From Lonicera japonica (lineage: Eukaryota > Streptophyta > Magnoliopsida > Dipsacales > Caprifoliaceae), in the NCBI GenBank assembly GCA_021464415.1, contig CM038463.1, positions 186,001 to 250,000 on the forward strand: a DNA stretch of 64,000 bases. Direction: 5' to 3'. Below the pieces are notes generated by a model that was given only the letters and a program-made list of their open reading frames with translations, searched no databases and was not told the DNA's origin. The position numbers were made by a program, and so were the translations under genes. Below, in pieces: positions 1 to 61,944 of this stretch; the first letter of the stretch is position 1; every line of letters begins with the position of its first letter.

Positions 1-1884
1 CCTACACTCAATCAGCCTGCCCCAACCTCCAATGCAGACTTTTTAGAGCCCACAAATGTCAATCAAAAAGCTGTACATACTGTACCTTCCTCCTCAGATA
101 TTCCAGCCACCAAACCTTCTTATGCCAGCTTTTTAAAACCCAAGGCCGTCCCACCAACCATTCCTGTCACACAGCTTCCAACGCCTTACAAAAAAGGACA
201 CCTGATGGCTGTCAAATTAGATGAGGAGGTGTATCAAAGGTCACTAAATTCATGCAATAACAATCTCCATGGCAGATTAATAATACCCCGAGGTAGAGCT
301 CCAGTTAAAACAGCAGATTTACAAATCTCCCTGGCAAATGTGTGGCAAACTAAAAACCTGTGGTCAATAACCCCCATTGGAAAAGGTTTTTACACCATCA
401 GATTTTCCAATGCTGATGATAAGCAAAAGGTGTGGGCCTCTGGAAAAACTATCATCAACGAAGGCACTTTCCATCTTCTTAAATGGACCAAAGATTTCAA
501 ACCTAGTCAGCAGAAACAAACCAGAGCCCATGTCTGGGCCAGACTGCATGAAGTGCCCGAAGAATATATGCATTTCCACCTTCTCATGAGTATGGCAAAT
601 GTCATAGGCAACCCTGTCACCATTGACCCCTTCACACTCAAAAAAGAGTTTGGCCACTATTGTAGAGTTGAAGTTGATGTAGACCTTAAATCTGCATTGC
701 CATCTTCCATTCTTGTAGAAAGAGAAGGATTTAACTTCGAGATTGAAGTTTCATATGAGAGAATCCCAGATTTCTGCTCCCACTGTTCGGTCATTGGGCA
801 CTTAGTAACTGCTTGTAGGTCTATCAAAAAAATTCAGGAGCACCATGAACTCCAGTCCAAGCTGCCTCCAAAAACCAACAATTTTCCAAAAGCCAGAACC
901 ACCAGAACATTCCAACCAGGCAACAACACAGCCACCACCCCAACACCTCCTTTTCCTTCAGTCAACATAGAACCAAATGAAGCAAACCACAATGTTGATA
1001 ATAACACTCTCCAAAAGGCTGCTTGTTCCTCAGCTCCTATGCACACAGCACAAGCCAATACTCCCACTGTCTCACAGCAAAGGGCCCTGACCAATGCTGG
1101 GTTGATGGACACCCCCAGTAGTGGCCACAACACCACAACACCCTTCAATAATGAATCCATGAATGCCAGAAATGAACCAGATATAGCCCATCAAGTTACT
1201 GTTACCTCGGATCCAATAGACACCTCTTCCTTCTCACAAAACCTCACTTCACCAGCTGAAACTGTTGTCCCATGTTCAGTTGACCAATGCCACACTCCCA
1301 CATCTCCACACATTGAGCTTCTCCCAATCTACTCACCCCCAACCCCCACCTCAGTACACAACTCTTTCTCTCCACTGAATGGTAAATTCTGGTCAGACAT
1401 GGAGGATGAAGAACCTTTGATAAGCTCAGAAGCTGCTGCTGATGCTAAGTTGGCTGAAATTATCCCACAAGTTTGCATTCAATTGATGGCAGATGAGAAT
1501 ACTTCTGTCTTTGACCAAGCAACCCCATGCAGGAGCAATGGAACCCCTCCCACTATACAATCCATTTATTCCAATACAGCAACCAGTCAGACCTCAAAAC
1601 CCCATGCCAATGGAAAGAAAAAAGCACCACAATCAAAAACCAAGCAGAAAAAAATTGCAGTTGCTGCTAACAGAAAAGCCAGGATAGATGCTAGACATGC
1701 TCCAATTGTTCAATGCAGCTCCCATGAAACCTATGAGGACAGGTTATACAATGAAATCATTGCCAAAAACAATAATACCCTAAACTGCTCTCTTGATGGT
1801 TCAGCCTCCACCTCCCAGGAAAAACCAAATTCTGACAGTTCTGAGTACTCCCCCTACAGAACCACCTCCACCCAATCCTCATGA
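1..1884 (+). CDS. LINE ORF1 (gag-like), 5' partial: DUF4283 domain + CCHC zinc knuckle
   Basis: Open from the first base in frame 1, so the start codon is outside the window; an internal ATG at 205 aligns with the middle of the homologous E3 ORF1. The codons just before it encode a SYASFLKPKA-type motif that precedes DUF4283 in the other copies. The DUF4283 region (a plant LINE ORF1 domain, RRM-like in character) covers about codons 68-230. A zinc knuckle CSHCSVIGHLVTAC (C-X2-C-X4-H-X4-C) starts at codon 259. The rest is a long Pro/Ser/Thr/Asn-rich, probably disordered tail with an acidic FWSDMEDEEP motif and a conserved end around LYNEIIAKNNN. By family knowledge the protein binds LINE RNA and forms the RNP. 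It ends at TGA overlapping the ORF2 ATG (ATGA, 1881-1884). No disruption is visible. Confidence 0.93.
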   Translation, partial: PTLNQPAPTSNADFLEPTNVNQKAVHTVPSSSDIPATKPSYASFLKPKAVPPTIPVTQLPTPYKKGHLMAVKLDEEVYQRSLNSCNNNLHGRLIIPRGRAPVKTADLQISLANVWQTKNLWSITPIGKGFYTIRFSNADDKQKVWASGKTIINEGTFHLLKWTKDFKPSQQKQTRAHVWARLHEVPEEYMHFHLLMSMANVIGNPVTIDPFTLKKEFGHYCRVEVDVDLKSALPSSILVEREGFNFEIEVSYERIPDFCSHCSVIGHLVTACRSIKKIQEHHELQSKLPPKTNNFPKARTTRTFQPGNNTATTPTPPFPSVNIEPNEANHNVDNNTLQKAACSSAPMHTAQANTPTVSQQRALTNAGLMDTPSSGHNTTTPFNNESMNARNEPDIAHQVTVTSDPIDTSSFSQNLTSPAETVVPCSVDQCHTPTSPHIELLPIYSPPTPTSVHNSFSPLNGKFWSDMEDEEPLISSEAAADAKLAEIIPQVCIQLMADENTSVFDQATPCRSNGTPPTIQSIYSNTATSQTSKPHANGKKKAPQSKTKQKKIAVAANRKARIDARHAPIVQCSSHETYEDRLYNEIIAKNNNTLNCSLDGSASTSQEKPNSDSSEYSPYRTTSTQSS

Positions 1885-4800
1885 AAGTCATGTATTGGAA
1901 CATAAGAGGTCTCAGCAAGGTTGAGTCCCAAAATGCTCTTAAAAATCTCTGTCTCAAGCATAAGCCTGATCTGCTCTTCATTTCTGAGCCTTTTGTTGAT
2001 TTACAAAAAATCCCTCCCTTCTTCTGGGTTTCCATTGATATGAAGCCTATAGCTGTCAACAACAGGCCATCTAAATCCTCCAACTTGTGGATATGCAAAT
2101 CTACAAACAGCCCTCAGCCCAGCATTATTTCCATTGCCAGTCAGCATATCACTTTCCTTGTCAGTTACAACAATGCCCCTTTTATGATCACAGCTGTCTA
2201 TGCTCACAATGACCATAGAATCAGAAGATCCTTGTGGGAAGAACTTGCTAGCATTAGAAGTAGCCAACATGCTCCTTGGGCTGTGATTGGAGACTTCAAT
2301 TGTGTCCTGGGGGCACATGAAAAAAGAGGTGGAAGGCCCCCTAATGCCACTTCTTGTATGGAGTTTCAAGCTTTCTCTGATACATGTGATCTGGTGCATC
2401 TGAACACAAGTGGTTTGTTTTTCACATGGACAAAGAACTCCACTTCTAGCATGGACTCCAGGTTGGACAGGACCCTTTGTAGTCATGATTGGTTTGATAG
2501 CTGGAACTCAGTCAACTGCTCAGCCCTCAATAGGCATACCTCAGATCATGCCCCCCTTTTGTTCACATCTTCTAATGATGTCATTAGTGGCCCAAAGCCT
2601 TTCAGATTCATCTCTGCTTGGTCCCTGCACCCAGCCTTTCAGGAGGTGGTGGCTAACTCCTGGTCAAAAGCTGTGCCAGCAACTTGCCCCATGGTTACAA
2701 TACAGCTTAAGCTGAAACAACTCAAACAAGACCTAAGAATTTGGAATGTTGAAGTGTTTGGGAATGTCAATGATAAAGTCAAAAATGCCACTGATCAGTT
2801 GCAGAAAATTCAACTCCAAATTGACACTGAAGGTCACTCTCATGCTCTTGACATTAAAGAAGCTGAAGCACAGTTTAACCTCATCCAAGCTAATCAAATG
2901 CAGGAGAAATTCTGGAGAGAAAAGGCTAGGATTAAATGGTTAAAAGATGGGGACAGGAGCACTTCTTTCTTTCACAGAATAGCCAAGCAAAGATGGGCCA
3001 CAAACAAGATCACAGCTCTCAAGCATGAAGGAACCTCTATACAGGATCCCAGCTCTTTAAAGAACCACATTCTGAGACACTTCCAAAACCTTTACAGCTC
3101 CCAAAATAGCACCAATGACCAAACCTTAATCTCTCAGGTTATTCCCTCTCTGGTTTCCAATGATGATAATGATCAACTTTGTGCTATTCCATCTGATGAG
3201 GAGATCAAAAAAGCTGTCTTCTCCTTGAACCCAAACTCAGCTCCAGGCCCTGATGGTTTCTCTGGTTCTCTATTCCAACAATGCTGGCATATAGTGGGGT
3301 GTGATGTTTGCAAAGCTACCAAGTTTTTCTTCCAAAGAGGATGGATTCTCCCAGGTTTCAATTCAAATTTTGTGACTTTGATCCCAAAATGTTCAAATGC
3401 TGATACCATCTCAAGTTATAGGCCCATCACTTTGGCTAACTTCATTTTCAAAATCATCCCTAAGATCCTGAGTGATAGATTAGCCACCATTGCTCCCAAA
3501 ATCATCTCTCCCCAGCAGAATGGTTTTATAAAAGGCAGACAAATTCACAACTCCATAGGAGTCACTTCTGAATGTTGCAATATGCTGGACAGGAAAAACT
3601 TTGGTGGAAACTTGGCAATTAAAATAGACATAGCAAAAGCTTTTGATACTCTTGACTGGGATTTCTTGCTCAAAGTTCTCAATGCCTTTGGTTTTAGAAG
3701 AGAGTTCATACAGTGGGTAAAGTGCATTCTGCACTCAGCCAAGCTTTCTATATTAGTCAATGGAACCCCTTGTGGGTACTTCAGCTGTTCTAGGGGGGTT
3801 AGGCAAGGTGACCCATTAAGTCCAGTTCTCTTTTGCTTGGCAGAGGATGTTCTAAGTAGATACCTCTCCCTACATGCCAACAATGGATCCCTAAAGCCCA
3901 TCTCTTCTCCCAAATGGTGCACTGCCCCAACACACTCATTGTATGCTGATGATGTGATGATATTTTGCAGAGGAGACAAAAATAATCTCAAACTTGTCCT
4001 CAGAATTCTGGATGACTATGCTAAAGCTTCAGGTCAACACATCAACTTCCAAAAGAGCAGAATTTTCTTTGGAAAAGGTAACATTGACAGAAAACCAGCT
4101 ATAACCAATTTGATGGGCATGGCTGCTGGAAATATCCCTTTTGATTACTTGGGAGTGCCAATCTTCAAAGGTAAACCCAAGTCCAGCCACCTACAACCTC
4201 TAGCTGACAAGGTGAGATCCAAGTTAGAAGGTTGGAAAGGCAAAGTCCTCTCTTTTGCAGGAAGAGCTGAACTCATAAGATCTGTGGCAATACCTATGTT
4301 ACTTCACTCCTTCATGGTATACCTTTGGCCTTCAAAGCTCATCCAGAATATCTCCACATGGCTTAGAAATTTTCTGTGGACAGGAGACATTGCAGGCAAA
4401 AAACTTGTTACTGTGGCATGGAATGATGTCTGTACTCCCAAAACACATGGAGGGCTTGGTTTGAGAAACATAAAGCAAGTTAACAAAGCTGGTTTGCTCA
4501 AACACACCTGGGATCTAATACATTCTAACAGTCAATGGAGCAATCTGATTAAAAGCAGGTTCAACATACAACACATTAAAGCCACTACCTCTTATAAGAT
4601 CTCCTCAATCTGGCCTGGGTTCAAACTTGCCCTCAGAGACATTGAAGAGCAAGCACAATGGGTGATTGGTAATGGAAACAAAGCCAACATTTGGGATGAC
4701 ATTTGGCTGCCTTCTTCACCTATCAAATGCCCTCAGATCCTCCTCAAGCATAGAAGCAATGTCAGCAGTTTTATTGCTGATAACCACTGGAAAGTCCCCC

Positions 4801-6953: not shown

Positions 6954-7205
6954 AAAAAAAAAAAAAAAAAACCCTAAACCCTAAACCCTAAACCCTAAAC
7001 CCTAAACCCTAAACCCTAAACCCTAAACCCTAAACCCTAAACCCTAAACCCTAAACCCTAAACCCTAAACCCTAAACCCTAAACCCTAAACCCTAAACCC
7101 TAAACCCTAAACCCTAAACCCTAAACCCTAAACCCTAAACCCTAAACCCTAAACCCTAAACCCTAAACCCTAAACCCTAAACCCTAAAAACCCTAAACCC
7201 TAAAA
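6954..7205 (+). repeat. Poly(A) tail plus telomeric (CCCTAAA)n tract T1
   Basis: Eighteen A residues (6954-6971) followed without spacer by about 33 nearly perfect CCCTAAA units (6972-7205); one unit near the end has two extra A. The C-rich strand reads left to right, so the terminus-facing side is left. It joins the E1 3' end to the complete 5' end of E2. Confidence 0.97.
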
Positions 7206-7295
7206 AGAAAACACAATGAAAATTTCTAGAGAGAGAAAGTATGATTATTCTCTCCATCCTCTCTCCTCAATTTTTTAATATTATTTTAGTTGATA
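7206..7295 (+). promoter_or_regulatory. E2 5' leader with conserved motif and upstream ORF
   Basis: It contains AAAATTTCTAGAGAGAGAAAG, then a CT-rich block TTCTCTCC...CCTCTCTCCTC; the GAGAGAG and CTCTCTC parts can pair. A 20-codon uORF runs from 7216 to 7278, beginning MKISRERK and containing PLSS, and ends 17 nt before the ORF1 ATG at 7296. The same layout occurs in E3 and E4. LINE promoters are internal, so this leader probably also contains the promoter (inference). Confidence 0.75.
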
Positions 7296-10200
7296 ATGAT
7301 TCCGGCCACCTTGCCACAACCTTCCCCCACCATTCCTCCACCCCTTTACCACCATGCCCCACCACAAAACCACCTTCCCTCACCTCAAAACCACCAGCCT
7401 CCACCGGAAAACCACCTTCACCTAAACAATTCTTCAACACATACACAGCATCAAAATCAGCAGCATCATACACAAAATCTGCTCCCCATGGCAGATTTAG
7501 CCATTTTCCTTCAAAATATGCAAGATAATCAAGCAAAACTCCAAGAACAGTTAGTGCACCTGCTTCAAAACAACTTTCCTGCTCCCTCAGTCCCTCAGCA
7601 GCATCATAACCCAATTCATAGCAGATATGCAGCAGATTCTGCAGATTCTGCAGCAAAAATGCAGGTCCAAGGAAATTTTCCAGTTCAATCTACAGAATCA
7701 GGTACATTGATGATCCAGGACTGCCCACACACTTCAAATACTATTCTAAGAACTCCTGAAGCAACCCCATCTCTCCCAGCAGCTCCAGGCATTTTCTCAC
7801 CCTCCAATGGGACATTTTTTGGCCAAAAAGCCAGTTTTCCAGTTCATATAGTTCCAACAAGTCCCGATCAATTCTGGACCTGCCCACAAGTTTCTCATAC
7901 CTCTATTGTCATCCCCCCATCAGTCCCCCCTTTTCCTAGTGCCCCTAGCAATTTTCCACTACCCAAAACCCCCTCTTTAGGTCATTTTTCATTCAAAAAC
8001 CCTAGTTCTGCAGATCTTGGGAATAATGGAGGGTTGTTTCAAGCCATACAGCTTCAAGGTTTCCCCCAGGCTTCTTCTGGTTCAGAGGGAAACTTAGTTG
8101 GAGTTTCTATGACTGAATCTGCATTTTCTGCAGAAACCAGGCCTTCTTTCAACTCCTCCACAGAGCAGCAACCAGCCCCAGCTAACTCTATGGTTCAGTC
8201 ATCTCCACAATCCATAAATATCAGCCAAAGAATTTCAGAACAGGTTCCTACTTCTTCCGTGGGTCAGAATAACTTTTCACACACTAAAACCTCTTCATCT
8301 GCCATCATTTCTGGTTTTTCTGCCAACTCTGACCATGAGCTGGCCAGGCAGCTCCACCAACAGCAAAAAGAGGATTTTTACTTACCTTCAATCTCCTCCT
8401 TAGGTATGGTAACACAGCTATTGGAGAATAATACTTCTGTTGCATGTCCTAAAACCTGCATTTTAGGAGAAAATAATAATTTTTCTTTCCCTTTGCTCCA
8501 TCATACTCAGAAATCCCCAGCAGGTTTTGATCCTCATTTTATTGATGGTTTTAATACCACTTGTGGTATTCCGGAGGCACAAAACCAGTACCTCAGCCCC
8601 ACAGTTTTTTCCCAGCCAAGCAGTCTTTTACCCAATAGTACAAATGCTCTGCCTGCTCTGTGCAATGTGACTGGAAAAGTGCAGACTTTTCACCCTCTTC
8701 CTGATGGCTCTGTGTCTGCAGGGGCACATAGCTCTAGAACAGCTTTTACCCAACAAAACACACTTCCTGTCACTTCACAAAAGCCCTGTCAAGTCAGCTC
8801 TCCATGCAGTCAATATGTACCACAGCAACCTAGTCATTTCCAAACCCTTTATCAACCAAACAACATAGTTGAAAACCCCCCCATTGTCCACACTCTTAGT
8901 CCCATTCGAACTGATCTTCCTCTTGGTTCCTCCTCCAACTCTTTAACAGAATTAATTACAAACAAATCTGAGATTGTAACGAATTCTTCCCCTTCCCAGC
9001 CAGAGCTCAATCAGCCTTCTTTTGCAAGCTTGTTCCAACATAACAAATCTTCAACCCCTGTCCCTCTTGCTCCTCTGCCAATTCCTTATTCTAAAGGAAA
9101 TTTACCTGCCATTAAATTAGATGAGCATGTTTATCAAAAGCATTGCATGCCAATTTAACCTTAGCTTGTAGGTTGTTCTCCCAAAAGGCTCTCATCCCAT
9201 CACCACCTTTGATCTTCATGCTAAACTTCAATCCATATGGAAAATCAAATATCAGTTCATTCTTACCCCAATTGGTAAGGGGTTTTTCTGCCTTAGATTA
9301 GAGCAAAGAAGACCAAAATCATGCTTTCTTGGCTGGGAAATTGAATCTAAATCCAGGCACCTTCAGACTTCAACCTTGGATTAAAGATTTCAACCCTTAT
9401 AACCAGAAAACTACCACATACAATGTGTGGATTCGGTTGCATGATGTGGCTCAGGATTACTGGGATCCTCATATCTTGATTAGCATTGCCAGCTTAGTTG
9501 GAATCCCACAGGCCATTGATAACCAGAAAACTACCACATACAATGTGTGGATTCGGTTGCATGATGTGGCTCAGGATTACTGGGATCCTCATATCTTGAT
9601 TAGCATTGCCAGCTTAGTTGGAATCCCACAGGCCATTGATAGAAACACCTTGCACTTCATTTTTGGTCATTATGCTCGATTGAAAGTGGAAGTTGACTTG
9701 CTACACCCACAGCCCTCTAAGCTATTGGTAGAAAGAGAAGGATTCAGCTTTGAAGTCCCAGTCACTTATGAAAACCTGCCCAATTTCTGCTCTTATTGCT
9801 TCTCTATCGGCCATTTGGTGGGAGAATGTAGAGCCCTCAAAATCACTCAGGTAAATTTGCCTAAGGTCAAAATTAATAGGACAACCAAACAGTCCCATGC
9901 CCCAAAAAATCAACAGACAGACACTGATCCTGTTCATATAATAGGCAACACAGCTGCTAATTTGCCTATTGCTTCTAATGCCTCCCATGAGCCTATCCCT
10001 CAGCACATAACTCCTCTCATGGTTACTGAGAAAGCCTCCCCTCCTGCACACCAATGCCATGATAAGAAACCTTGTGAATCCCATCATATGCAACTTTCCT
10101 CAGCTAGCCTTCACGGCTCTTCAAAAGAAACAATGGTGCCTTGCTCTTTCTCTCCAAAAAAGAATAAGACAGACTTTAAATCTAAGAACCATAGCACTTC

Positions 10201-11116
10201 ATTTTATAAACAAAATACTCCCACACCCTCCATAAACAGGTCCCTCTCCATCTCCAATAACACTTTCAAGAACAAAAATCGATTTCAAAACCAGTTTGAC
10301 CCAATTTCGGATCTTCATTGGGAAGATGATGGTGAAGGTGAAAACTGGAACTGCCTAGGCAGTTCTGAGGATGATGATAACTCCTCTATGGGAGGCTACT
10401 CTCCTGTAGGTACTAATCATTTTACAGGTGTTCCTAAACTCAATGTACATGAGGCCCTCAACTGGAGTTCTATGGCTGAAGAGGAGCCTTTGAAATCTAT
10501 GGAAGCTCTGGCAGATGACCAATTTGCTGCTGCTTTAAACCATCACAGTCAAAATGCAGGTGCAGGAGAATGCATTCAGCTGCTTCAGGACACCAATTCA
10601 TCCATTTTGGACCAAAATTTCCCCCCTCTGCATTCAAGTTTATCCCCCCCTTCCATCAAGCATAAAACACAACCTTCACCCTCCACTAATACCTCCCCAT
10701 CCAGAGGCTCATCTTACACACCTTCTCCCACATCTAAAATCCAGAAAACCAAAAAGGCCTCCAACCCCTCTCTGCACAAGCAAAAGAAGTTGTCCAAAGC
10801 TGCCAAAAGAGAGGCCAATGCCCTCTCTAGGCTCTCTAAGTCCAACATCAAGCTCCCACAGTATAATCAGGATGAGTATCAATGGAATCTGCTCCTGGCA
10901 GATCAGCAGAAAAGACAGAATGCAAACACTTATGTCTTGAATATTGCAGAAAATTCTGATGCTTTGCAGAATAGGGAAGGACATGCAGCCCCTGATGTCA
11001 CTCATGTGAATGAAGGATGGAAAGTAACCATTCATCCTCCACATCAGCCCATTAAAGCAAATTCTTCTAACAAAGAGAACAATTCTGCAGAATTACACCC
11101 TGCAGGCAGTGGCTGA
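7296..11116 (+). pseudogene. LINE ORF1, family B (gag-like), frameshifted
   Basis: Starts at ATG 7296; a TTG in frame just upstream is not a likely start. The N-terminal half is a long Pro/Gln/Ser-rich region, open until TAA at about 9158, just after DEHVYQK, where DUF4283 begins. Compared with E5, a net 5-nt loss follows DEHVYQK, then an in-frame TAG and a 1-nt loss near 9297, so the first part of DUF4283 is unreadable. The frame reopens and runs to TGA at 11116 with the rest of DUF4283, a zinc knuckle CSYCFSIGHLVGEC (from 9788), and an acidic tail with SDLHWEDDGEGENWN. A 120-bp in-frame duplication lies inside DUF4283. No ATGA and no ORF2 follow the stop. Confidence 0.88.
9401..9640 (+). 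repeat. Perfect 120-bp tandem duplication inside E2 ORF1
   Basis: Bases 9401-9520 are repeated without a mismatch at 9521-9640. The unit encodes 40 residues of DUF4283 (NQKTTTYNVWIRLHDV... to ...GIPQAID), so the duplication keeps frame. E5 and the other families have a single copy. Perfect identity means it is recent, a replication-slippage or assembly-level event. Confidence 0.95.
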
Positions 11117-22298: not shown

Positions 22299-22333
<35 letters not shown>

Positions 22334-44200: not shown

Positions 44201-44213
44201 CCCTAAACCCTAA
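44201..44213 (+). repeat. Minimal telomeric spacer T7 (13 bp)
   Basis: CCCTAAACCCTAA between the E7 A run and the truncated E8 start; fewer than two units. Confidence 0.88.
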
Positions 44214-46119: not shown

Positions 46120-46129
46120 CCCTAAACCC
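46120..46129 (+). repeat. Minimal telomeric spacer T8 (10 bp)
   Basis: CCCTAAACCC only, between the E8 A run and the E9 start; identified as telomeric from its position and phase. Confidence 0.75.
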
Positions 46130-49148: not shown

Positions 49149-52100
49149 AAGTCCTCTTCTGGAACATTAAGGGCATCAATAACTCTGATTCTCAAAGAGT
49201 TCTCAAAAATCACCTCATCACTCATAAACCTGACCTTCTTATCATTGCTGAACCTATGATTCATTTTGACAGCTTTCCTCCTCAGTTTTGGCTTAGCATT
49301 GGTATGCAATTAATTGCAACCAATAATAGACCTAACCTTAAACCCAATCTCTGGGTGATGGGTTCTTTTAACATTCCCCCTCCTGTCAATATCCAAAGGC
49401 ATGACCAGCATATTACCTTTATTCAGCCCTCTCCTATTGGTGAAGTTCTTATTACTACTATCTATGCCAACAATAATCAATACACTAGAAGGCTGTTATG
49501 GCAAGAATTTTTTTAGATCATTTCTTACCACAGGGGTCCTTGGCTGGCTATAGGTGACTTTAACTGTTCTCTTGGTGCCCATGAAAAGAGAGGGCTCGCT
49601 CCTCCTCATTTATCTTCTTGTTTGGAGTTTCAAGGCATGACTGATAGCTGCAATCTCTTACACCTTCCCACCACTGGCTCTCTCTATACCTGGTCCAAGA
49701 AAAGTTATCCCTCAATGGACACCAGGCTTGATAGAGCCATATGTAACCATGAGTGGCTTCAAAGTTGGAATCAGGTTTCTTGCACTGCCCTCCCCAAAAT
49801 TGCCTCTGATCACAACCCTCTCCTATTGCATTGCATTGATTCTACTCATGTGGGTCCTAAACCTTTTAAGTTCATGGCTACCTGGTTCACTCATGAGAGT
49901 TTTCTGGAAGTGGTTAATCAGTCCTGGCAAAGCCCTTATTTGGTTGTTTGTCCTATGGTCAAAATCCAGTGGAAATTAAAGCAGCTAAAAAATGCTCTTA
50001 AGATCTGGAATGTTGAGGTGTTTGGAAATGTTCACCATGCTGTTGCTGATGCTCATGCTGCTCTAATTGACATTCGACAAAAGATTGACTATATGGGTCA
50101 CTCCTCTCATAGAGACAAGCAAGAAGAAAAGGCTCAGCATAAATTTTTTTTTTTGCTCTTAAAAGGCAAGAGAGCTTGTGGAAGGAAAAATCCAGAGTCA
50201 AATGGCTGGCTGAAGGAGACAAAAATACCACCTTCTTTCACAAAATAGCCAGGGAAAAATATGTTACCAACATAATCACCTCCCTCAATGATCATGGCAA
50301 ATCTATTTCTGACCCTCACCTTATCACCAGCCACATCCTCAGTTACTTTTAGAACCTTTACTCCACTCCTAACAATGCTGTGAACAATGGTTTCATTCAA
50401 CAAGTCATTCCCAATCTTGTCTCCGATCTTGATAATGCTGTTCTCTGTGCTGTTCCCAGTCCTGAGGAGATCAAAAATGTTGTGTTTGGCCTGATCCCCT
50501 TTCAGCTCCTAGCCCTGATGGTTTCACAGGTATCTTCTTCCAAAAATGCTAGCACATTATTGGTGATGATGTCTATAAGGCTATTGCCTTATTCTTTACT
50601 TCTGGTTGGATTCTGCCTGGCATGAACTCCAATTTTATCACCCTTATCCCAAAAGTCCCTCATGCCAATACTTTGACTGATTTCAGACCTATAGCTCTTG
50701 CTAATTTCCTTTTCAAAATCATCCCAAAAATCTTAAGTGAAAGAATAGCCCCCATTGCTGCCAATATTATCAGCCCCCAACATAATGGTTTTGTGAGAGG
50801 AAGACACATACATAATTCTATTGCTACCACCTCTGAGTGTTTTAATATGCTAGACACTAAGAATTCTGGAGGTAACATTGCTCTCAAAATTGATATAGCC
50901 AAAGCCTTTGATACCATTGACTGGGATTTCCTGCTTTAAGTGCTTCAAGCTTTTGGCTTCAGCCCCACTTTTATTGGCTGGATTAACACTTTGTTAAATT
51001 CTGCCAGAATGTCAGTGCTTGTGAATGGTTCTCCTCATGGGTATTTTAGTTGCAAGAGAGGGGTGAGACAAGGAGATCCTCTCAGTCCCATTCTATTTTG
51101 TTTGGCAGAAGATGTTCTCAGCAGGGCCATCACTTTGGAAGTTGCCAATGGCAATCTCAAGCTCATAACTGGTTCTAGAGGTGTTAATATGCCCTCCCAC
51201 TCTCTTTATGCTGATGACATTATGCTCTTCTGTTGTGGGTCTAAAAGCAATCTCAAGGTGGTTAGCAAAATTCTTTCCATATATGGGGAAGTATCTGGGC
51301 AAATCATAAACAAAAGCAAGAGCAAGGTGTATTTTGGCAAAGGGGCCATTCACAAAAAAACATACTATATGTTCTGCCCTCTCTATGACTGAAGGAAATA
51401 CCCCCTTTTCTTATCTTGGAGTTCTTATTTTCAAGGGAAAACCCAAAAGCCAGCACCTTCAATGCATTATGGGCAAAATCAGATCTAAGATGGAAGGATG
51501 GCAAGGCAAATTATTATCTTTTGTAGGCAGAAATGAATTGATTAAAGCAATGATTCTTCATATGCTCATTCACTCCTTCACTATATATCGATGGCCTACC
51601 AAGCTCCTCAAAGACCTGCAGATATGGTGTAGAAATTTTCTGTGGACATGTGACCTGCTATGTAGGAAATTAGTTACTGTGGCCTGGCATACAGTTTGTA
51701 CTCCTAAGCATTCTGGTGGACTTGGGATCAGACACATTCCTGACCTCAATAAAGCTGCTCTTTTGAAGTACATGTGGAGTATATACAAGTCAGAATCTCA
51801 GCTGAGGTTTATGCTCCATTGCAGATTTAATTTTAGAAAGCATTGCTCCACCTCTACCTACAAACCTTCCTCTATTTGGCTAGGTCTTAAACAGGCTTTG
51901 CAAATTATTAATAATCATGGTTTTTGGATTGTTGGTGATGGCCAAAACATCAACATCTGGCAGGACAACTGGTTTTCTGATGATGAGATATAGCCTGTCC
52001 CTGCCTTGCTCTCTAAGCCCAGCAAATTGGCCACCTTCATCAATCATAAGGCTTGGCAGATTCCTAGCTGGTTCCAACACCAGTACCCTCATCTTGTTGC

Positions 52101-53271
52101 TATAATCAAGGGTATTCCTTCCTCAGAATCACCAAGCTGAACAGTTCATTTGGCCCTACACTTCTCATGGAGACATCACTTTTCAAGAAGCCTACAGATT
52201 TTTCACTACTTCCACTGAGGTAGTTTGGTCAAAGCATTTGTGGAAATCCTTCATTCCTCCTAGAGTCTCTTGTGATGCATGGAAAATCCTCCATAAAAGA
52301 ATTTCCACACATGATCAATTTCAAAAAATGGGCATCCACATGGCTTCCAGGTGTGAGCTCTGCAAAAATAGCACTAAAACCATTGACCATATGTTCATAC
52401 AATGTAGATTCTCTGCTATTCCCTGGCAGTGGATTTGGTTCCATTTTAAGATCTCTGGGCAGATTCCCACCACTACTATGGGAATATGGTATCATATAAG
52501 CAATTACAAAGGCAGTCCTCAGATCAATAGCCTTCTCATAGCTTGCTGCCTCATCTGCTTTCATATTGTTTGGCAAATCAGGAATAAAGCCATCTTTGAC
52601 TGTGGAAAGCCTATAATCTCCAGCACCATTCACCATCTTAAAGGTTGGCTAATGGAAATTGCTCCATTGATCTCCAAACACATGCATAATAACATCACAG
52701 ATTTCACCATTCTCTACTCTCTGGGCATTAAAGGCAATACCAAGCCATATCCTTCCATCATTGAGGTTTTATGGCATCCTCCTCTGCCCTCTTGGATCAA
52801 GGTCAATACTGATGGCCTTGTTTTTGGCTCTCCGGGTCCTACTGCTATAGGAGGGGTTTTTAGAAACTATATAGCCTTCTTCCTTGGAGCTTTTTGTAAA
52901 CATGTTGGTATTCACATTGCCTTTTCAGCTGAGCTTCTGGCTTTATGCAAGCCATTGATCTTGCTTTTGATAAAAGATGGCATAGACTTCGGGTTGAAAT
53001 GGACTCCCTTGTCCTTGCTAAAGGGGTGATAAAAAACACCTTCAAGCCTCCTTGGAAATTCTCTACTCTCTAGACCATTTGCCATGACAAAATGCAAAGA
53101 ATGCACAAAAGAGTTTCTCACATCTTCAGAGAAGGCAATCAAGTGGCAGACAAACTATCAAAATTGGGCATACATAGTCAAAATCTCACATGGTGGAGTT
53201 CAGCACCTAGGGAGCTTAATGGCCTCATCTCCAATGATTATTTTGGGCTTCCCTTTTACAGGTTCAAATGA
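49145..53271 (+). pseudogene. LINE ORF2, family C, multiply disrupted
   Basis: Starts MKVLFWNIKG. Lesions: TAG at 49514-49516; a frameshift in a T run near 50145; TAG near 50350; a frameshift near 50500; TAA at 50937-50939; a frameshift near 51360; TAG near 51991; further shifts near 52130 and 52945; TAG near 53071. GDFN, a GVRQGDPLSP box, YADD, zf-RVT (CELCKNSTKTIDHMFIQC) and RNase H motifs remain recognisable in their fragments. It ends FKF-type residues with TGA 53269-53271. Inactive. Confidence 0.9.
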
Positions 53272-53818
53272 GTGCTCTGGCTGGATCTACTGCTGCTATC
53301 ACCTCATTCTTTGCATTAGTAATCTTCCAATTCTGCCAGAGCTATGTCTACACAGTTCTCAATGTCCAGCCAGCTACAATTCCTCCTGCATTTATCTCCT
53401 TTATTCTTAGAAATACTGCACTCATGCCCAGTTGCCTTGCTACTTCATCTGCCCTTTGGTTCTCTGCTGCAGTTATGCTAAGCCTCCCTGCTGCACCAGT
53501 TTTGGTACTGCCCAGCCCACAATTCTTTATATTCTTTTTTGTATTATTTTTTGTATTACCAATGGTCATTCTCTCTCCAGCCTTTGTATAGTTTTTTGTA
53601 TAGGGCTTTTATATCACAGAAATTGTACTGTGGACTCCATGTTTTCAGTCCATAAAACAATTTCTTTTTCCTATTTTGTAACTTCCTTAGATGACCATTG
53701 GCTTTTTTGTAAGGCTTTGGGGGTGAGCCATAACCACCTTCCAACTTGTATTTCCCCTCTTTTTTCTTTTTATGCTACTCCCTCTAATGCCCTTATAGGG
53801 TGTTAGAGTTTTTTTTAG

Positions 53819-53871
53819 AAAAAAACCTAAACCCTAAACCCTAACCCCTAAACCCTAAAACCCTAAACCCT
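53819..53871 (+). repeat. Poly(A) plus degenerate telomeric tract T9
   Basis: A short A run, then CCTAAA and about six CCCTAAA-like units including CCCTAACC and CCCTAAAA (53826-53871). The copia element is inserted at its right end. Confidence 0.92.
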
Positions 53872-53874
53872 GCC

Positions 53875-55205
53875 TGTTGGGAATTAAGGCAGTAATCATG
53901 CATCACATACACTAATTTATGCACTAATCATTAAACCCTAGGATCTATACAGTTCAATAATTATCGATAGAAAACATACCTTGTTCGAGATTCGAATTAA
54001 AATCAGTGAACACGGTGGACAGAATCTTCTGTTGTTGTCGTTCTAGCGTTGAAAATACAACGCCTCTACGGTATGCACACACGAACGAGATCGGATCCTT
54101 ACTTGGTGTACTAGCGCCTTTAGGGTTCTCACACTAATTTCGTACTCTGCCTCTGTTTCTCTCACAGTGCGGCCAAGAGGAACAATGGTCCCTTTTAAAG
54201 GGGAACCCTAGTGAGAAACCCTAAGCAACAAAACGAATTAGGCCCAAGTCCAACTTGGCCCATTTTCAATTCGTTTTGATCCAACTCGTTTTGGTGTGCG
54301 ACCCTGTAAGTTTATACTCTTCGGCAGTATAATTAAAAGCCCGTTTTATTATAGGAAATAGTAAGCAGTCTCTAGTAAAACATTACTATTACCCAAAGGG
54401 TATAATGGTCAAAACAACACAACCTTAAATTGATATTCCACATATTAACTCCTTTTGTCAATCGATATCTAGATTGAACACAAGACTAGGCAAGTGTCAT
54501 TCTTGTATAGTTCAATCTTTATTTCTTGATCTCTAAGTATAATTAATCTAAAACAAATGACATCTCATTTGTGCATGGCCATGCAAATATTAATTATACT
54601 TATCAAGGGGCCCAACGATATCTCTCTCATTATACGAGAGTGACAAATCCCATCTTGATCAACCACATACCTCTACATAGTTCATAGTATGCTCGATCAT
54701 CATCTTTATAATTACTCGGTCAAGAGCAACGTTTGATAATGCCTGACATGCTAATCCCAATGTTGGTAACCATGGCGATCTCAGGTCTCAGGATAATACG
54801 ATATCACAAATGGGGAACATCACTGATGACATTATGTAACACTCCTCGCAGTGTCCCCAAAGCGTGTCGGTCCAATACTTTGTTCACTAACAAGTATTAG
54901 CATGTTCAGCTTGATATCTCCATATTCATGACTTGTGGAACATAGTCATTAGCTGACCCATACTCTAATCATTATATCAATGTGATCTTAGGTTATTGAC
55001 ATATGATCAGGGACATCTAAACAATATTATTATAACATTACTAGCATCCCATAATCTAGTCACGTACTTGATGAACTAGTATTAATAAATATTATTTACA
55101 AAAGAATATAAAGTAAAATGAAATAAACTTTATTAATGACAATAAGCATAAGATATCCAAGTACAAATCATAATATATGAATAGTCCTAGGACATATCTC
55201 TTTCA
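53875..55205 (-). repeat. copia 3' LTR (left copy)
   Basis: 1331 bp from TGTTGGGAATTAAGG to TCTCTTTCA; nearly the same as the right LTR. The polypurine tract, minus strand AAGTGGGAGAC, adjoins it at about 55206-55217. Confidence 0.93.
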
Positions 55206-55219
55206 GTCTCCCACTTGTA

Positions 55220-56360
55220 CTAGGACCATTCATTCATAAAACGAATGCCTAGTGCACTAAAATGACGATCATGTTTAGATTGAGAAAGTGGCTTAGTCAA
55301 AGGATCAGCTACATTCTCGTCTGTGGGAACCTTGCATATCTTTACATCACCATTACTGATAATCTCACGAATGAGGTGCACTACTCCTTTTGAGTCCCTA
55401 TACATTTGCACAAATGTGAGATGCACTACCAGTATCTAATACCCAAGAAGTAGAAGAAACTGAAGTAACATTTACTTCTATAACGTAAGTACCTGAAGAC
55501 GAAGGGGCTAGTCCCTTCTTTTTGTCGTCAAGGTATTTCTTGCAGTTTCTCTTCCAATGACCCTTTTCATTGCAGTGAAAACATATCATTTCAGCTTGTA
55601 GATTAGGCTTGGGCTCAGAATTTTTCTTTTTGTTGTTCTAGTTCTTAACTTGAGCTTTACCCTTGCTTTTGGCACTGGACTTTCCTTTGCCATTTCCACC
55701 TTTCTTGAAACCCTTTCCCTTTTGAACCATCAGAACATTATTCTTACCTTTCTTAACAATGTTCTGCTCAGCTGTTTTCAGCATCCCATGCAGCTCAGTT
55801 AATGTCCTTTCCAGGCTGTGCATATTGAAGTTCATAATGAAACCATCATATGACTCAGGCAGCGACTGGAGAATGACATCAGTGGCCAACTCTTGGCTAA
55901 TGGTTGTCCCCAACCTTTCTAGGTGATCAATGTACCCAATCATTTTGAGTACATGAGGACTGACTGAGCCTCCCTCGGGAAGCTTGCATGAAAACAAAGA
56001 CTTAGTAGTCTCGAAGCATTCGACTCGAGCTTGTTCCTGAAACAAACTCTTCAGTTCCTTAACCATGTCGAATGCATTCATATTTTCAAACTGCTTCTGC
56101 AGATCAGCATTCATGCTAGCAAGCATGAGACATGAAACATCTAAATCATCATTTAAATGCTTCTGATATGCATCTTTCTGTGCACGAGGAGCATTAGCTG
56201 CCGATTCTTCAGGAATAGCATTTTCGAGGACATAATCTTTCCTCTCCTGTTTGAGAACAATTCTCAGATTCCTAAACCAGTCTAGGAAGTTGGTTGTATT
56301 TAGTTTTTCCTTCTCAAGGACAGATCGCAACGAAAAAGCAGTTGTATTATTGTTCGTCAT
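55220..56360 (-). pseudogene. copia gag + CCHC + protease start fused to RNase H end
   Basis: Gag (UBN2-type) runs from 56360 (MTNNNTTAFSLRSVLEKEKL) to a TAG at about 55638; the same frame then gives zinc knuckle CFHCNEKGHWKRNC and the protease active-site segment WVLDTGSASHICANV. At about 55405 it joins the terminal RNase H part (IREIISNGDVKICKVPTDEN, DPLTKPLS) in another frame, ending at 55220. Integrase, RT and most of RNase H are deleted. The single stop between Gag and the zinc knuckle is probably a decayed Trp codon. Confidence 0.9.
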
Positions 56361-58036
56361 CTATCTACAGCAAAATAACATATGCAAACATTTAATATGC
56401 TTATTAAAAAAATTCCTACTATGTCTTACATGCAATTGTCCCATTAGGACATAGTAGGTCCAAGATCCATATTACACAAGGTATTAGGAAAGCTTTGGCT
56501 TTTCTCTTAAACTTTGTTAATTAGGTAAGCAACATTTGTTAATTACATTCTATGCAACTCTTGGTTAGTTGAGTTTTACATCTTATGTTTCGGCTTCTCA
56601 ACACTTTGCCTCAAGGCCCAAAACCGTTTTGATGGCCTTGTGAAATCAAACCAACACTTTTCTGACTTATGGATGTCCGACTTCCATTCTATTAATTTAT
56701 GATGATCTAAGATAACCCCGCTTTGGCAGGCGTCTTCTATAATAATCATAAAATTAATAGTTATCAGTGTTGGAAAGGCACAAATAATTTCTTTTGTTCT
56801 AGGGACATAAATATGCAGTCACACAATAATACAACAGAATATTTAAACAAGCATAAACCAATAAATATGTGATATAGTATGGCCAGAGATATAAAGCTAC
56901 TAATTAACTATGCTCTCCATCCTTCGTAGCTTTGGACACTCCAAAGTTCTTGGCTATCTTCTCTTGTGATAAGGGATCCTCCATCTTCTATGCGAGGTAA
57001 TATACAAAAAATGTACAGCCTAATACAAGAGACTAGTAATATAAAATTACATTGCAAAACACAAAACGACACACAGGCCGTATTTATATATTACAATAAA
57101 AACAAGACGACGCGCAGGCCGTATTTAGTTTGGCCATACTATATCACTATAAATTATAATCCTGCAAGTTAGTATTATCTTATAACACAACATATTGCAT
57201 ACACATAAATGCGAAAATTAAATTTAATCAATTATTAAGTAAACACTAAGGGGTCGAGGGGCAACGCCCCCGCGAGGTTTGGGGCAGCGCCCCAACGGGG
57301 TCGAGGGGCAGCGCCCCAACGGGTTCGAGGGGCAGCGCCCCCGCGGGGTTTGGGGTAGCGCCCCAACCGGGGTCCAGGGGGACACCCCGGCGGCGGTCCC
57401 GCTGACCGGTCAGCGGGCTCGGTTTATGACCTGCAAGAGAATCACACCTCTGCCACCGTGGAGAATTTGAACGATTTCAAATCATTTTCTCCAGAAACGT
57501 GTCTAACCATATTAGACAGATTCGTCTAGATTAATCATGTTAATCTGTCCTGTCTCATTAATCAAATTAATCGTGAAGAACCCTATAGCCGTGATCTTAT
57601 CAGGTCTATAACGATTGCGTAAACCCTAACAGAACAATTTTGACATGCTTGTATGATAATTGTGGAATTAAAATCATGACAGCATAAAGATCCTAACGAG
57701 TAACATGCCAAAAGATGAACCCTAACCGAAAACGGCTTAACAGAATCATGAACATGTCGATAACAATCATACAGTAATCATGTTTTTGACATATCAGATC
57801 TCTATTAATCAGATTATAAAAGGACATATCGTATATGCAAACTGATTAACGAAAACAGAAAACATGCTACAGAAAACGATTAACCCATTAATCGATATTA
57901 ATAAAACCTAGCATGATACTAAAAACCGAATATGATATTAATCGAAATTTAAACGAGAATAGATCTTCAAGTTATAAAACGACTATAATCATGATCGAAA
58001 ATTAAAGAACAGTAAATAACCTCGCTCTGATACCAC
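56361..58036 (-). other. copia 5' leader and primer-binding site
   Basis: Non-coding, AT-rich interval between gag and the 5' LTR. The minus strand TGGTATCAGAGC (plus strand 58024-58035) is the initiator-Met tRNA primer-binding site, one base from the LTR. A GC-rich palindromic repeat block lies within it at 57249-57410. Confidence 0.85.
57249..57410. repeat. GC-rich imperfect tandem repeat with palindromes in copia leader
   Basis: Five or so units of about 28-34 bp built on GGGGCAGCGCCCC, spaced by AACGGGGTCGA-like linkers, followed by GCTGACCGGTCAGC. The surrounding DNA is AT-rich. Each unit is self-complementary, so the RNA would fold into consecutive stable hairpins. Confidence 0.85.
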
Positions 58037-59363
58037 TGTTGGAATTAGGGCAGTAATCATGCATCACATACACTAATTTATGCACTAATCATTAAACACT
58101 AGGATCTATACAGTTCAATAATTATCGATAGAAAACATACCTTGTTCGAGATTCGAATTAAAATCAGTGAACACGGTGGACAGAATCTTCTGTTGTTGTC
58201 GTTCTAGCGTTGAAAATACAACGCCTCTACGGTATGCACACACGAACGAGATCGGATCCTTACTTGGTGTACTAAGGCCTTTAGGGTTCTCACACTAATT
58301 TCGTACTCTGCCTTTGTTTCTCTCACAGTGCGGCCAAGAGGAACAATGGTCCCTTTTAAAGGGGAACCCTAGTGAGAAACCCTAAGCAACAAAACGAATT
58401 AGGCCTAAGTCCAACTTGGCCCATTTTCAATTCGTTTTGATCCAACTCGTTTTGGTGTGCGACCCTGTAGGTTTATACTCTTCGGCAGTATAATTAAAAG
58501 CCCGTTTTATTATAGGAAATAGTAAGCAGTCTCTAGTAAAACATTACTATTACCCAAAGGGTATAATGGTAAAACACACACCTTAAATTGATATTCCACA
58601 TATTAACTCCTTTTGTCAATCGATATCTAGATTGAACACAAGACTAGGCAAGTGTCATTCTTGTATAGTTCAATCTTTATTTCTTGATCTCTAAGTATAA
58701 TTAATCTAAAACAAATGACATCTCATTTGTGCATGGCCATGCAAATATTAATTATACTTATCAAGGGGCCCAACGATATCTCTCTCATTATACGAGAGTG
58801 ACAAATCCCATCTTGATCAACCACATACCTCTACATAGTTCATAGTATGCTCGATCATCATCTTTATAATTACTCGGTCAAGAGCAACGTTTGATAATGC
58901 CTGACATGCTAATCCCAATGTTGGTAACCATGGCGATCTCAGGTCTCAGGATAATACGATATCACAAATGGGGAACATCACTGATGACATTATGTAACAC
59001 TCCTCACAGTGTCCCCAAAGCGGGTCGGTCCAATACTTTGTTCACTAACAAGTATCAGTATGTTCAGCTTGATATCTCCATATTCATGACTTGTGGAACA
59101 TAGTCATCAGCTAACCCATATTCTAATCATTATATCAATGTGATCCTAGGTTATTGACATATGATCAGGGACATCTAAACAATATTATTATAACATTACT
59201 AGCATCCCACAATCTAGTCATGTACTTGATGAACTAGTATTAATAAATATTATTTACAAGAGAATATAAAGTAAAATGAAATAAACTTTATTAATGACAA
59301 TAAGCATAAGATATCCAAGTGCAAATCATAATATATGAATAGTCCTAGGACATATCTCTTTCA
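58037..59363 (-). repeat. copia 5' LTR (right copy)
   Basis: 1327 bp, TGTTGGAATTAGGGC to TCTCTTTCA. It differs from the left copy by scattered substitutions and small indels, so the insertion is not brand new. Confidence 0.93.
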
Positions 59364-59368
59364 CTGCC

Positions 59369-60078
59369 TCCATCTAGTTCACCTAATGGTGGTGCCCCAA
59401 ATGCCCCAAACACCTCTCTAACACACCACAACTTCACCTCATCAACTGAAACCATTGTTCCATGCTCAGTTGACCAAAGCCATACCCCTTTATCCCCACA
59501 AAATGATCACTTTCCCATACACTCTCTTCCTTCCTCCACCAGTTCATAACTCATTCTCTCCTCTTAATGGAAGATTCTGGTCTAACATGGCTGAGTAAGA
59601 ACCATTTTTAAGCTCTGAAGCTGTTACTGATGCTCAGTTGGCTAAAAATATCTCCCAGGCTTATATTCAATTAATGGAAGGTGATAACACTTCTGTCCTT
59701 GATCAGTCTACCCCATGCAAAAATAACAGTGCCTCTCCCATAGTGCACCCCATTTCTTCAGTCACAGCTAGCAATAAAGCCTCCAGTTTTGCTAATAAGG
59801 GCAAGCATAAGGCCCCTCTTTCCAAAGCTAAACAAAAGAAGTTACAAACAGTTGCCAATAGAAAAGGCAGAAATGAAGCCAGGCATTCTGTTAGCCACAG
59901 CACTCAAGCAAGTACCAATGAAACTTATGCGGACATATTATACAATGATATCATTGCCAGGGACAACAATGCTCTGAGCTGCTCCTTGGATGGTTCTGAA
60001 TCAGTCTCACAAGATATGCCAAATTCTGCCAGTTCTGACAGTTCATACTGCAGAAATACTACCACCCAATCCTCATGA
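59369..60078 (+). pseudogene. LINE ORF1 C-terminal tail, family A
   Basis: It corresponds to the family A tail from TIVPCSVDQSHTP onward. A 1-nt loss near 59535 and TAA at about 59596 (in WSNMAE*EP) break it; from 59638 the frame is open to TGA 60078 with YIQLMEGDNTSVLDQ, basic KGKHKAPLSKAKQKK and LYNDIIARDNN. The stop overlaps the ORF2 ATG as ATGA. Confidence 0.87.
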
Positions 60079-61216
60079 AAATCCTTTATTGGAACATTAG
60101 AGGCATCAACAATGTTGAGTCTCAAAGAGCCCTTAAGAACCATTACAGCAATCATAAACCAGATATGTTATTCCTCTCTCAACCATTTGTTGAATTTCAA
60201 AAAGTTCCCCCCTTTTTTTGGATTTTTATTGGCATGCACTTCTTTGCTGTCAATAACAGACCTAATAAACCACCCAATCTGTGGATTCTCAAATCTACAT
60301 GCTGTCCTCAACCCAATACCATCTCTTCCTCTAGTCAACATATCACTTTCTCTGTAAGATACCACAATAAACCTTTTTTGATATCAGCCATATATGCCCA
60401 CAATGATCATAGAACTAGAAGAATTTTTTGGGAGGAGCTCACTTGCATCAAAAGTAGTCATCAGGATCCTTGGCTGGTCATTGGTGATTTTAATTGTATT
60501 CTTGGAGCTTATGAAAAAAGAGGTGGGAAACCTCCTCTTGCTTCTTCTTGTTTTGAATTTCAAGCCTTCACTGATACTTGTGACATGGTACACTTGGATA
60601 CCACTGGCCATTTTTTCACTTGGTCTAAACATGCCACTTCAAACATAGACTCTAGGCTGGATAGAGCTCTATGTAGTCATGATTGGTTTGATAGTTGGCA
60701 ATCAGTCAACTGCACAGCCCTCACCAGATATGCTTTAGATCATACTCCTCTCATCCTAAACTCCTATAATGATACCATTAGTGGTACCAAACCCTTTAGA
60801 TTCACTTCAGCCTGGATGCTCCACCCATCTTTTGAAGATGTTGTGACCAAGGCATGGGCTAAAGATGTGCCTGCAAATTGCCCTATGGTCACCATTCAGC
60901 TTAAGTTAAAACAGCTCAAGCAGGACCTTAAAATTTAGAATGCAGAAGTGTTAGGAAATATTAATGACAAAGTCAAAAATGCTGCTGAGCAATTGCAAAA
61001 AATCCAACTTCAAGGATGGTCATTCTCATGCCTTGACCTGTTGGAAGCTGAGGCACAAGCTAAGTTCATCCAAGCTAGTCACATGCAAGAAGTGTTCTGG
61101 AAAGAAAAAGATAGAATCAACTGGTTAAAGGATGGGGACAGGAGCACAGCTTTCTTTCATAGGATAGCTAAACAAAGATGGGCAACTAGCAAGATCACAA
61201 GCCTGAAGAGTGGACT
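60075..61216 (+). pseudogene. LINE ORF2 N-terminal part, family A: endonuclease and linker
   Basis: Starts MKILYWNIRG. GDFN and the SRLDRALC segment are present; the SDH motif reads LDH (ALDHTPL), a change at a conserved endonuclease position. TAG at 60936-60938 replaces Trp; the same frame then continues through GNINDKVKNA and WLKDGDRSTAFFHRIAKQRW to about 61216, where the insert begins. Inactive. Confidence 0.88.
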
Positions 61217-61506
61217 TTACCATTATTTTGGATGATGGGCTATGGATTTGTACAAACGGTTTTTTATATATATATATGTGGAGTTGGTTGTGATTGTGTT
61301 TGTGTTAATGTGTTTTGTAAACCTCTTAAACTTGGTTTTACTTAAATAAACTCCACATACCGAGCATTTGTAAAACTGGACATTTTATTTAGGAAAAGTT
61401 TTTAAAAGTCATGGATTTTATATTTTAAACCCGCCGTCGCGTACGGCATCCGTGATTAACCGGGTCCCGGAGGTGAAAATCTCAGAACGGGATTCGGGGC
61501 GTCACA
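61217..61506 (+). repeat. LTR-like fragment inside E10
   Basis: About 290 bp unrelated to LINE, with a TATATATATA run, AATAAA-like sequence and a GC-rich end running CCGCCGTCGCGTACGGC to GGGCGTCACA. The end matches, in inverse orientation, the start of the DNA at 61947, so both are termini of one LTR family. The left boundary is approximate. Confidence 0.65.
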
Positions 61507-61930
61507 CCAGCCCCCTCTTTCAGCTCTGTTTTCTGCCAGCAAAACTTAACACAGTGCACTGTTTTCTCCATTTAGTGCACTGCCAGAAGAATGTACATTG
61601 ACAGCACTTGTAGCATTTGGAGCTTTTTCTATTTTTTAGATAGGCTCTATTTTTTGGCTGCCACCTGTTTGTGGCACAGTTATTGCTATTTCCTTTTTGG
61701 TATATGTTGTATAGTTTTTTGTCTTAGGCTTTTTCATAATTATAATTACTTTGTGGACTGTTTGAGTTCAATCTATAAGGCAATTATTCTTTTTTTGGCC
61801 TTAGTTACCAAAATTAATAAAAAATGGGTTTTTTATAAGGCTTTAGGGGTGAGCTGTATCCACCTTCCAATTTGTATTATTTTTTATGGCATTTCCTCAT
61901 ACTCCTTGATGGCAGTTTGAGATTTTATTT
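61507..61930 (+). other. E10 3' UTR
   Basis: T-rich tail with GTGGACTG...CAATCTAT (a decayed form of the TGGACT/AGTCCA hairpin, about 61752-61777), a GGCTTTAGGGGTGAGC box as in family C, and the terminal stem near 61896-61921. The upstream ORFs are family A, so the element is mosaic. Confidence 0.68.
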
Positions 61931-61944
61931 AAAAAAACCCTAAA
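61931..61944 (+). repeat. Poly(A) plus a single telomeric unit T10
   Basis: Seven A and one CCCTAAA, then non-LINE DNA. This is the innermost telomere-type junction in the window. Confidence 0.75.

Follow-up and report, generated by a model that had tools for sequence, protein, structure and literature searches.

The LINE array at the left end of C1

The stretch examined here, called the window, comprises 64,000 nucleotides of the Lonicera japonica genome (assembly GCA_021464415.1, contig CM038463.1, hereafter C1, positions 186001-250000) and carries an array of long interspersed nuclear element (LINE) copies alternating with CCCTAAA telomere repeats. The assembly holds 886,079,548 bases in 967 contigs, and nine of 20 contigs compared by length, C1-C9, are chromosome-sized (63-117 Mb each, 752 Mb in sum); nine pseudochromosomes are reported for the species (PMC13254203). 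When read together with C1:1-186000 and C1:250001-260000, the array is seen to reach far beyond the window, from C1:1 to near C1:248k (last joint at about 247,946), interrupted once, by 38.7 kb of non-array sequence followed by a gap of 100 N. The first assembled base of C1 falls inside a LINE, and C1:1-247,946 consists mostly of successive LINE copies, all on the plus strand and each closing with a hairpin, poly(A) and telomere repeats. Counted from the assembled left end of C1, the window spans 186-250 kb, and the array occupies the outermost 250 kb of that end, so the terminal location proposed in an initial annotation of the window is borne out against a place in the chromosome interior; the true chromosome tip is absent from the assembly, and terminal position is resolved only to scaffold level.

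Positions 1-61,946 of the window are made up of ten units (u28-u37, Table 1), of which u33-u37 are truncated, composite or broken. All ten LINE 3' ends lie on the plus strand and directly abut telomere repeats, in agreement with the head-to-tail alternation of one polarity noticed initially. The accompanying statement that every poly(A) is joined to CCCTAAA is correct for nine of the ten joints, the one at 53819 entering CCTAAA, and the tract at 61938 amounts to a single unit. Across C1:1-248k, 37 of 37 3' ends of this hairpin-bearing type are on the plus strand with telomere repeats directly after, 33 of them opening in phase with CCCTAAA and four off phase (CCTAAA, CTAAA or CACTAAA); poly(A) measures 7-34 nt and the tracts 9 to about 750 bp. 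These ends were picked by eye from 66 A-runs, the 29 others being A-runs inside elements, in 5' fillers or unrelated, and a minus-strand search for this 3' end type in C1:1-260000 returned a single row, which is not such an end. Protein comparison with u28 across the array aligned 42,912 residues on the plus strand and 621 on the minus strand (summed pieces), the minus-strand residues all coming from a single inverted unit. The poly(A)-telomere junction pattern occurs at 30 places genome-wide versus none for the reversed pattern; this control and the genome-wide distribution given below rule out chance or a misreading of the pattern.

At the other side of the units, a 5' motif is present in 21 of the 37, 2-30 nt from a telomere unit and separated from it by variable, A/G-rich filler; u09 and u13, in which some 1.5 kb of the 5' region found in u20 is missing, are excluded from this count. 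One 5' filler is common to u09, u13 and u19. The near-identical bodies of u24 and u30 (pieces up to 99.9%) differ in neighbours, poly(A), tract lengths and 5' filler alike, as would be expected of separate insertions with each end completed separately.

Within the non-array stretch (C1:117,593-156,331) lie a copia element, fragments of a different type of L1 and a DUF659 protein. It is closed by the 100-N gap (to C1:156431), beyond which the sequence resumes inside a LINE of family 1, the family of u28, without its 5' part; two array pieces were therefore joined here, perhaps from two chromosome ends or haplotypes. On either side, many joints are held within the gap-free stretches C1:1-156331 and C1:156432-260000. 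Three of the A-runs set aside above (C1:136843, 139658 and 140809) lie in the non-array stretch and may be 3' ends of another LINE type that lacks the hairpin; ordinary DNA follows them.

Table 1. Units of the array and their poly(A)-telomere joints in the window (window positions; ORF, open reading frame; aa, amino acids; EN, endonuclease; RT, reverse transcriptase).
Feature	Position	Strand	Remarks
u28, autonomous L1	1..6953	+	begins at C1:184876, upstream of the window; open frames ORF1 (968 aa) and ORF2 (1375 aa, 1881-6008; EN, RT, zf-RVT, RNase H); 3' hairpin precedes poly(A)
poly(A)18 and CCCTAAA tract of 235 bp	6954..7206	+	
u29, Gag-only element	7207..11667	+	broken ORF1 frame with DUF4283 and zinc knuckle; without EN or RT; 5' motif present
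poly(A)9 and CCCTAAA tract of 244 bp	11668..11920	+	
u30, L1	11921..22298	+	ORF1 12002-14815, ORF2 14785-18594; extra DNA separates zf-RVT from RNase H part
poly(A)33 and CCCTAAA tract of 37 bp	22299..22368	+	
u31, L1	22369..31663	+	ORF1 22431-25406, ORF2 25403-28285, detached zf-RVT/RNase H part 29689-30867
poly(A)17 and CCCTAAA tract of 202 bp	31664..31882	+	
u32, 5'-truncated, ORF1 only	31883..34122	+	
poly(A)16 and CCCTAAA tract	34123..34194	+	
u33, composite unit	34195..43403	+	tandem triplication of about 0.95 kb first, ORF1/ORF2 pieces after
poly(A)8 and CCCTAAA tract of 43 bp	43404..43454	+	
u34, short 5'-truncated LINE copy	43455..44188	+	
poly(A)12 and CCCTAAA tract of 13 bp	44189..44213	+	
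u35, 5'-truncated L1 copy	44214..46110	+	zf-RVT, RNase H
poly(A)9 and telomere-like tract of 18 bp	46111..46137	+	
u36, L1 with broken ORFs	46138..53818	+	traces of ORF1, EN, RT
poly(A)7 and degenerate CCCTAAA tract	53819..53871	+	
u37, innermost unit, mostly not recognised as LINE	53872..61946	+	endonuclease piece and LINE 3' end only (53872-61930), then poly(A)7 (from 61931) and single CCCTAAA; proximal array edge

Two further tracts, at 35085-35159 and 36046-36107, do not adjoin poly(A) and belong to the triplication of u33 (34139-36107), which includes a 5'-truncated LINE piece. A 24-bp tandem repeat of 5.5 copies lies at 57250-57380, inside the largely non-LINE u37.

RT-coding and Gag-only families

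The elements have the build of plant L1 retrotransposons, with DUF4283 and a zinc knuckle in ORF1, an APE endonuclease, RT and zf-RVT in ORF2, and poly(A) 3' ends; Pfam domains in the window are DUF4283 and zf-CCHC for ORF1, and Exo_endo_phos (PF03372), RVT_1, zf-RVT and RVT_3 for ORF2. Both frames are open in u07, u10 and u28 (ORF1 of 968-1067 aa, ORF2 of 1375 aa). Among 120 matches listed for ORF2, the best two reach 69% and 56% identity, the closest named relatives are plant proteins at about 40-47%, and none bears a Lonicera name. The three LINE families of the initial annotation proved too few: in 18 copies taken from across the array, the RT domains sort into about ten groups, with identities of 59-85% between and 96-100% within groups, to which two Gag-only groups are added, and several units carry ORF1 only. 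The YADD motif is retained in 17 of the 18 RT copies. A separate RT family for u23 was rejected, since its DNA is 97.5% identical to that of u28, of which it is a frame-broken copy.

The Gag-only copies (u03, u04, u14, u25, u26, u27, u29 and shorter ones) possess ORF1 without EN or RT. Their ORF1 reaches 1235 aa in u25, 1175 aa in u26 and 1112 aa in u04, and is followed by a 3' untranslated region (UTR) of 549-560 bp in u03, u04, u25 and u26 and of 403 bp in u27. Over almost its full length, the 1235-aa protein of u25 matches a 1207-aa protein of Lonicera macranthoides at 84%. Between the two groups (u25 versus u26, 1119 codons), synonymous divergence (dS) is 0.81 and the ratio of nonsynonymous to synonymous change (dN/dS) 0.36; the ratio is likewise 0.36 for u04/u26, and 0.38 for u04/u25 at dS 0.02. 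Values of 0.36-0.38 in these pairs point to selection on the Gag-only protein. The pair u26/u14, in which u14 is broken, gives a dN/dS of about 1.0 (470 codons).

A 3' hairpin of at least 6 pairs folds in all 37 ends, in 21 distinct sequences and 1-15 nt before the poly(A); for eight of them, comparison with shuffles gave z of -1.8 to -4.4. Because the same kind of hairpin is common to Gag-only and RT-coding copies, it suggests that the Gag-only copies may have been moved by the RT of autonomous partners.

Chromosome ends, telomere repeats and telomerase

Five probes were used to locate related sequences in the assembly. For probe 1 (3' UTR of u28; best 40 of 123 candidates scored), 34 matches are placed on C1-C9, 29 of them within 300 kb of an end versus 0.24 expected. 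Probe 2 (poly(A)-telomere junction with at most 2 mismatches) has 25 of its 30 places on C1-C9, and all 25 are within 300 kb of an end (0.18 expected). The exact 5' motif (probe 3) was found at 59 places among 100 listed of 260 places; 47 are on C1-C9, with 45 within 300 kb (0.34 expected). A hand count for probe 4, a 3' UTR of the GGCTAG type, put 36 matches on C1-C9, 35 within 300 kb of an end and one interior (best 40 of 90 candidates). Probe 5, a piece of Gag-only ORF1, gave 30 matches (all 29 candidates scored), of which 22 are within 300 kb of an end of C1-C9, one is at 327 kb and seven are on five unplaced contigs. Probes 1-3 together match 14 of the 18 ends (C9 left on one locus only), and six unplaced contigs carry at least two probe matches, on a single strand in each. 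The families are thus concentrated at chromosome ends, as first supposed, and are not dispersed genome-wide, with the reservation that five of the 34 placed family-1 matches are interior. These positions rule out, for the main families, dispersed LINEs that had merely fallen into interstitial telomere repeats.

LINE sequence reaches the outermost assembled bases at 8 of 17 readable ends, with the 5' side outward in all. By their outermost 200 bp these are C4 left and C6 left on the plus strand and the right ends of C1, C2, C6, C7 and C8 on the minus strand; at C1 left the LINE start was assigned by its own 3' end. C4 right would be added by a weak match, and C7 left reads N. The array polarity is as expected, with poly(A) toward the centromere, at ten ends.

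Perfect CCCTAAA 28-mers number 505 + 772 genome-wide, 314 of them within C1:1-260000. Exact tracts of at least 196 bp occur nine times in the assembly (five at C1 left, three at the ends of C4, of which one left and two right, and one on the unplaced array contig C647), all nine in stretches also matched by LINE probes. The longest measures 322 bp. The assembly is therefore without an ordinary long telomere, and arrays, not uniform telomeres, form its ends; terminal repeats may have been lost.

The telomerase gene TERT was located at a single locus (C7:57,621,491-57,621,889) with a full Telomerase_RBD profile (2.3e-37) and no stops, in a 449-aa open frame; the part examined is the RNA-binding (TRBD) exon. 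The idea that LINE addition and telomere repeat addition both act on the same end is judged likely for most assembled ends, and continuing repeat addition is supported by this intact exon and by the long perfect tracts between copies.

Growth of the array

We consider it reasonably probable that the array has grown by LINE reverse transcription from the chromosome terminus, with telomerase re-capping the copies. LINE RNA would be reverse-transcribed from a TTTAGGG 3' end, with whose GGGTTT the poly(A) is predicted to pair, and telomerase would then extend every newly made copy with further TTTAGGG repeats. We infer that the primer would be the chromosome terminus rather than a nick inside a tract, and that telomerase would add the tracts between copies. 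The terminus is favoured because tracts between copies are as short as 13-18 bp, no long target tract is seen and many families are interleaved in one polarity.

Several observations weigh against growth from the terminus. Priming from a TTTAGGG 3' end, as originally proposed, fits the polarity, but an identical junction would result if an L1-type endonuclease cut at GGGTTT^AGGG within a tract, and target-site duplications are unreadable in perfect repeats. Tract purity has no clear trend (non-canonical bases 183/2017 distally versus 253/2031 proximally). Telomere seeds at 5'-truncated joints are weak and were not used as support: 11 junctions were queried; relatives came up for eight of them, those of u33 being tandem copies from the unit itself, and only about two had a short repeat overlap. 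Probes 1-3 found no match at C2 left, at either end of C3 or at C5 right, and of the 41 one-mismatch versions of the 5' motif among the places listed, 13 are interior, at over 300 kb from the nearest end. Seven of the 25 placed junctions have the reverse of the expected polarity: at C8 left and C9 left the whole block is turned round, and C2 right and C9 right each have one block of either sense. Every such block is uniform inside. Scaffolding flips or inversions may account for them, and misoriented terminal contigs would be the simplest explanation. Family 1 also has five relatives in chromosome interiors, 80-81% identical and 2-6 Mb from ends, and in all five a similar hairpin sequence and poly(A) are followed by ordinary DNA; the junction with telomere repeats is therefore particular to terminal copies and not an inevitable outcome of the element's tail. 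Lastly, recombination has clearly added to the array, as judged from the triplication in u33, the inverted repeat of u15 and the mosaic u18.

A serious but somewhat unlikely alternative is insertion of the SART/TRAS kind, in which the LINE endonuclease would nick the G strand at GGGTTT^AGGG in double-stranded tracts, target-primed insertion would follow and the ends would be kept by telomerase alone. It would account for the retention of the APE-type endonuclease domain (PF03372) in ORF2 and for the single phase, poly(A) followed by CCCTAAA, at 33 of the 37 3' joints (four off phase); the presumed site resembles the mammalian L1 cleavage site TTTTAA, and a precedent for site preference in a plant L1 is L1-CS of Cuscuta in the satellite CUS-TR24 (PMC8091179). 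However, tracts of 13-18 bp between copies fit stepwise growth of an end better than repeated insertion into a long tract, and no exact tract longer than 322 bp is available in the assembly as a target for nicking, although terminal repeats may be missing.

It is very improbable that the array stems from a small number of old insertions and little retrotransposition of recent date, the copies having multiplied through unequal exchange, sister-chromatid events or break-induced replication between tracts. The three rearranged units just named and the common 5' filler of u09, u13 and u19 would be accommodated by such events; the interleaving of many families without a repeated order, the near-identical bodies with different poly(A), tracts and neighbours, and the existence of copies with open ORFs would not. 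It is scarcely credible that the pattern is an artefact of assembly, or that LINEs entered a common interstitial block of telomere repeats by chance. In favour of this stand the two pieces at C1 left, joined through the 100-N gap where the 38.7 kb of non-array sequence ends, and the reversed orientation of several terminal blocks. Against it, many joints lie within single gap-free stretches of C1, six unplaced contigs and 14 of the 18 ends carry the families, and the reversed-pattern controls gave no matches.

It is tempting, though with rather less than even confidence, to speculate that this flowering plant has a hybrid mode of end maintenance. An old, diversified group of telomere-dedicated L1 elements, divided as HeT-A and TART are in Drosophila, with Gag-only and RT-coding families both kept by selection, would add kilobases, and telomerase would supply only the short TTTAGGG tracts between copies.

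Among telomeric elements of other organisms, HeT-A belongs to the jockey clade and SART/TRAS to the R1 clade, and no APE domain is known from MoTeR and FoTeR. The domain set in Lonicera is that of a plant L1 (DUF4283, zf-RVT, RNase H), unlike HeT-A. The Drosophila elements HeT-A, TART and TAHRE likewise follow one another head to tail at chromosome ends, their poly(A) pointing to the centromere, and HeT-A, which encodes no RT, stands beside RT-coding partners (PMC5537684), a division paralleled by the Gag-only units of Lonicera. Whereas Drosophila ends consist of the elements alone, without telomerase, in Lonicera CCCTAAA tracts separate the copies and the TERT exon is intact. SART and TRAS of Bombyx and Tribolium are similar in being APE-endonuclease non-LTR (long terminal repeat) elements among telomerase-type repeats in hosts that keep a telomerase gene (PMC5537684); endonuclease specificity has been shown there, whereas in Lonicera any such specificity is putative, and Gag-only families are present as well.

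A similar arrangement is known from fungi: MoTeR1 and MoTeR2 of Magnaporthe and FoTeR of Fusarium form head-to-tail copies with 5' truncations, spaced by telomere tracts that range from half a unit to over 20 units, MoTeR2 is a non-autonomous partner with the same ends as the RT-coding MoTeR1, and the 3' side of FoTeR adjoins TAACCC repeats (PMC12857005, PMC7367193). MoTeR1 has a putative REL-ENDO domain, where the Lonicera L1 has an APE endonuclease (PF03372), poly(A) and a pair of ORFs; Lonicera is set further apart from MoTeR/FoTeR by arrays that exceed 100 kb and by the presence of about ten RT families at a single end. Zepp of Chlorella vulgaris is a LINE-like element at the telomeres of a green alga (PMC5537684), but its host is unicellular. 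L1-CS of Cuscuta europaea is likewise a plant L1 lineage and has a strong site preference, 91% of it near CUS-TR24 (PMC8091179), but its target is a satellite and not telomere repeats.

Telomeric non-LTR elements are on record from insects, Giardia, fungi, Chlorella and an anole (PMC10088271, PMC5537684). The view that no plant case is established agrees with a 2025 review, which states that no retrotransposons like the telomeric ones of Drosophila have been found in plants and mentions Penelope-like elements for Selaginella and, for Silene, subtelomeric Retand (PMC12477314); no telomerase-negative plant is known according to PMC7046594. Telomeric LINE arrays in land plants were not found in the literature searched, mostly titles and abstracts, which does not prove their absence in print. 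As far as could be found, an L1-based chromosome end of a flowering plant that combines telomerase with LINEs, in RT-coding and Gag-only partners, is new. If the proposed growth is correct, a land plant would have evolved telomeric LINEs independently, with the same division into RT-coding and Gag-only elements and with telomerase retained, and would allow telomerase and retrotransposition to be studied together at shared chromosome ends. It would also raise the question of how ends without long uniform repeats are protected.

Some units of the wider array are rearranged internally. In u15 (C1:74804-78896) one LINE stretch is duplicated in inverted orientation around five TTTAGGG units, the only G-sense tract of at least three units in C1:1-260000, and the whole looks like a fused or folded chromosome end; twin priming was ruled out, as the inverted part repeats the same element stretch as the forward part. 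Unit u18 (C1:88157-92474) is a mosaic, its first 2.3 kb 99.0% like the Gag-only u14 and its last 2.0 kb 99.4% like the RT-coding u10/u11, and would have arisen by either template switching or recombination. A 1.33 kb sequence shared at 99.7% identity by u24 (C1:163938-165269) and u31 (window 28280-29611), at different positions within the two elements, is probably another mobile element that entered the array.

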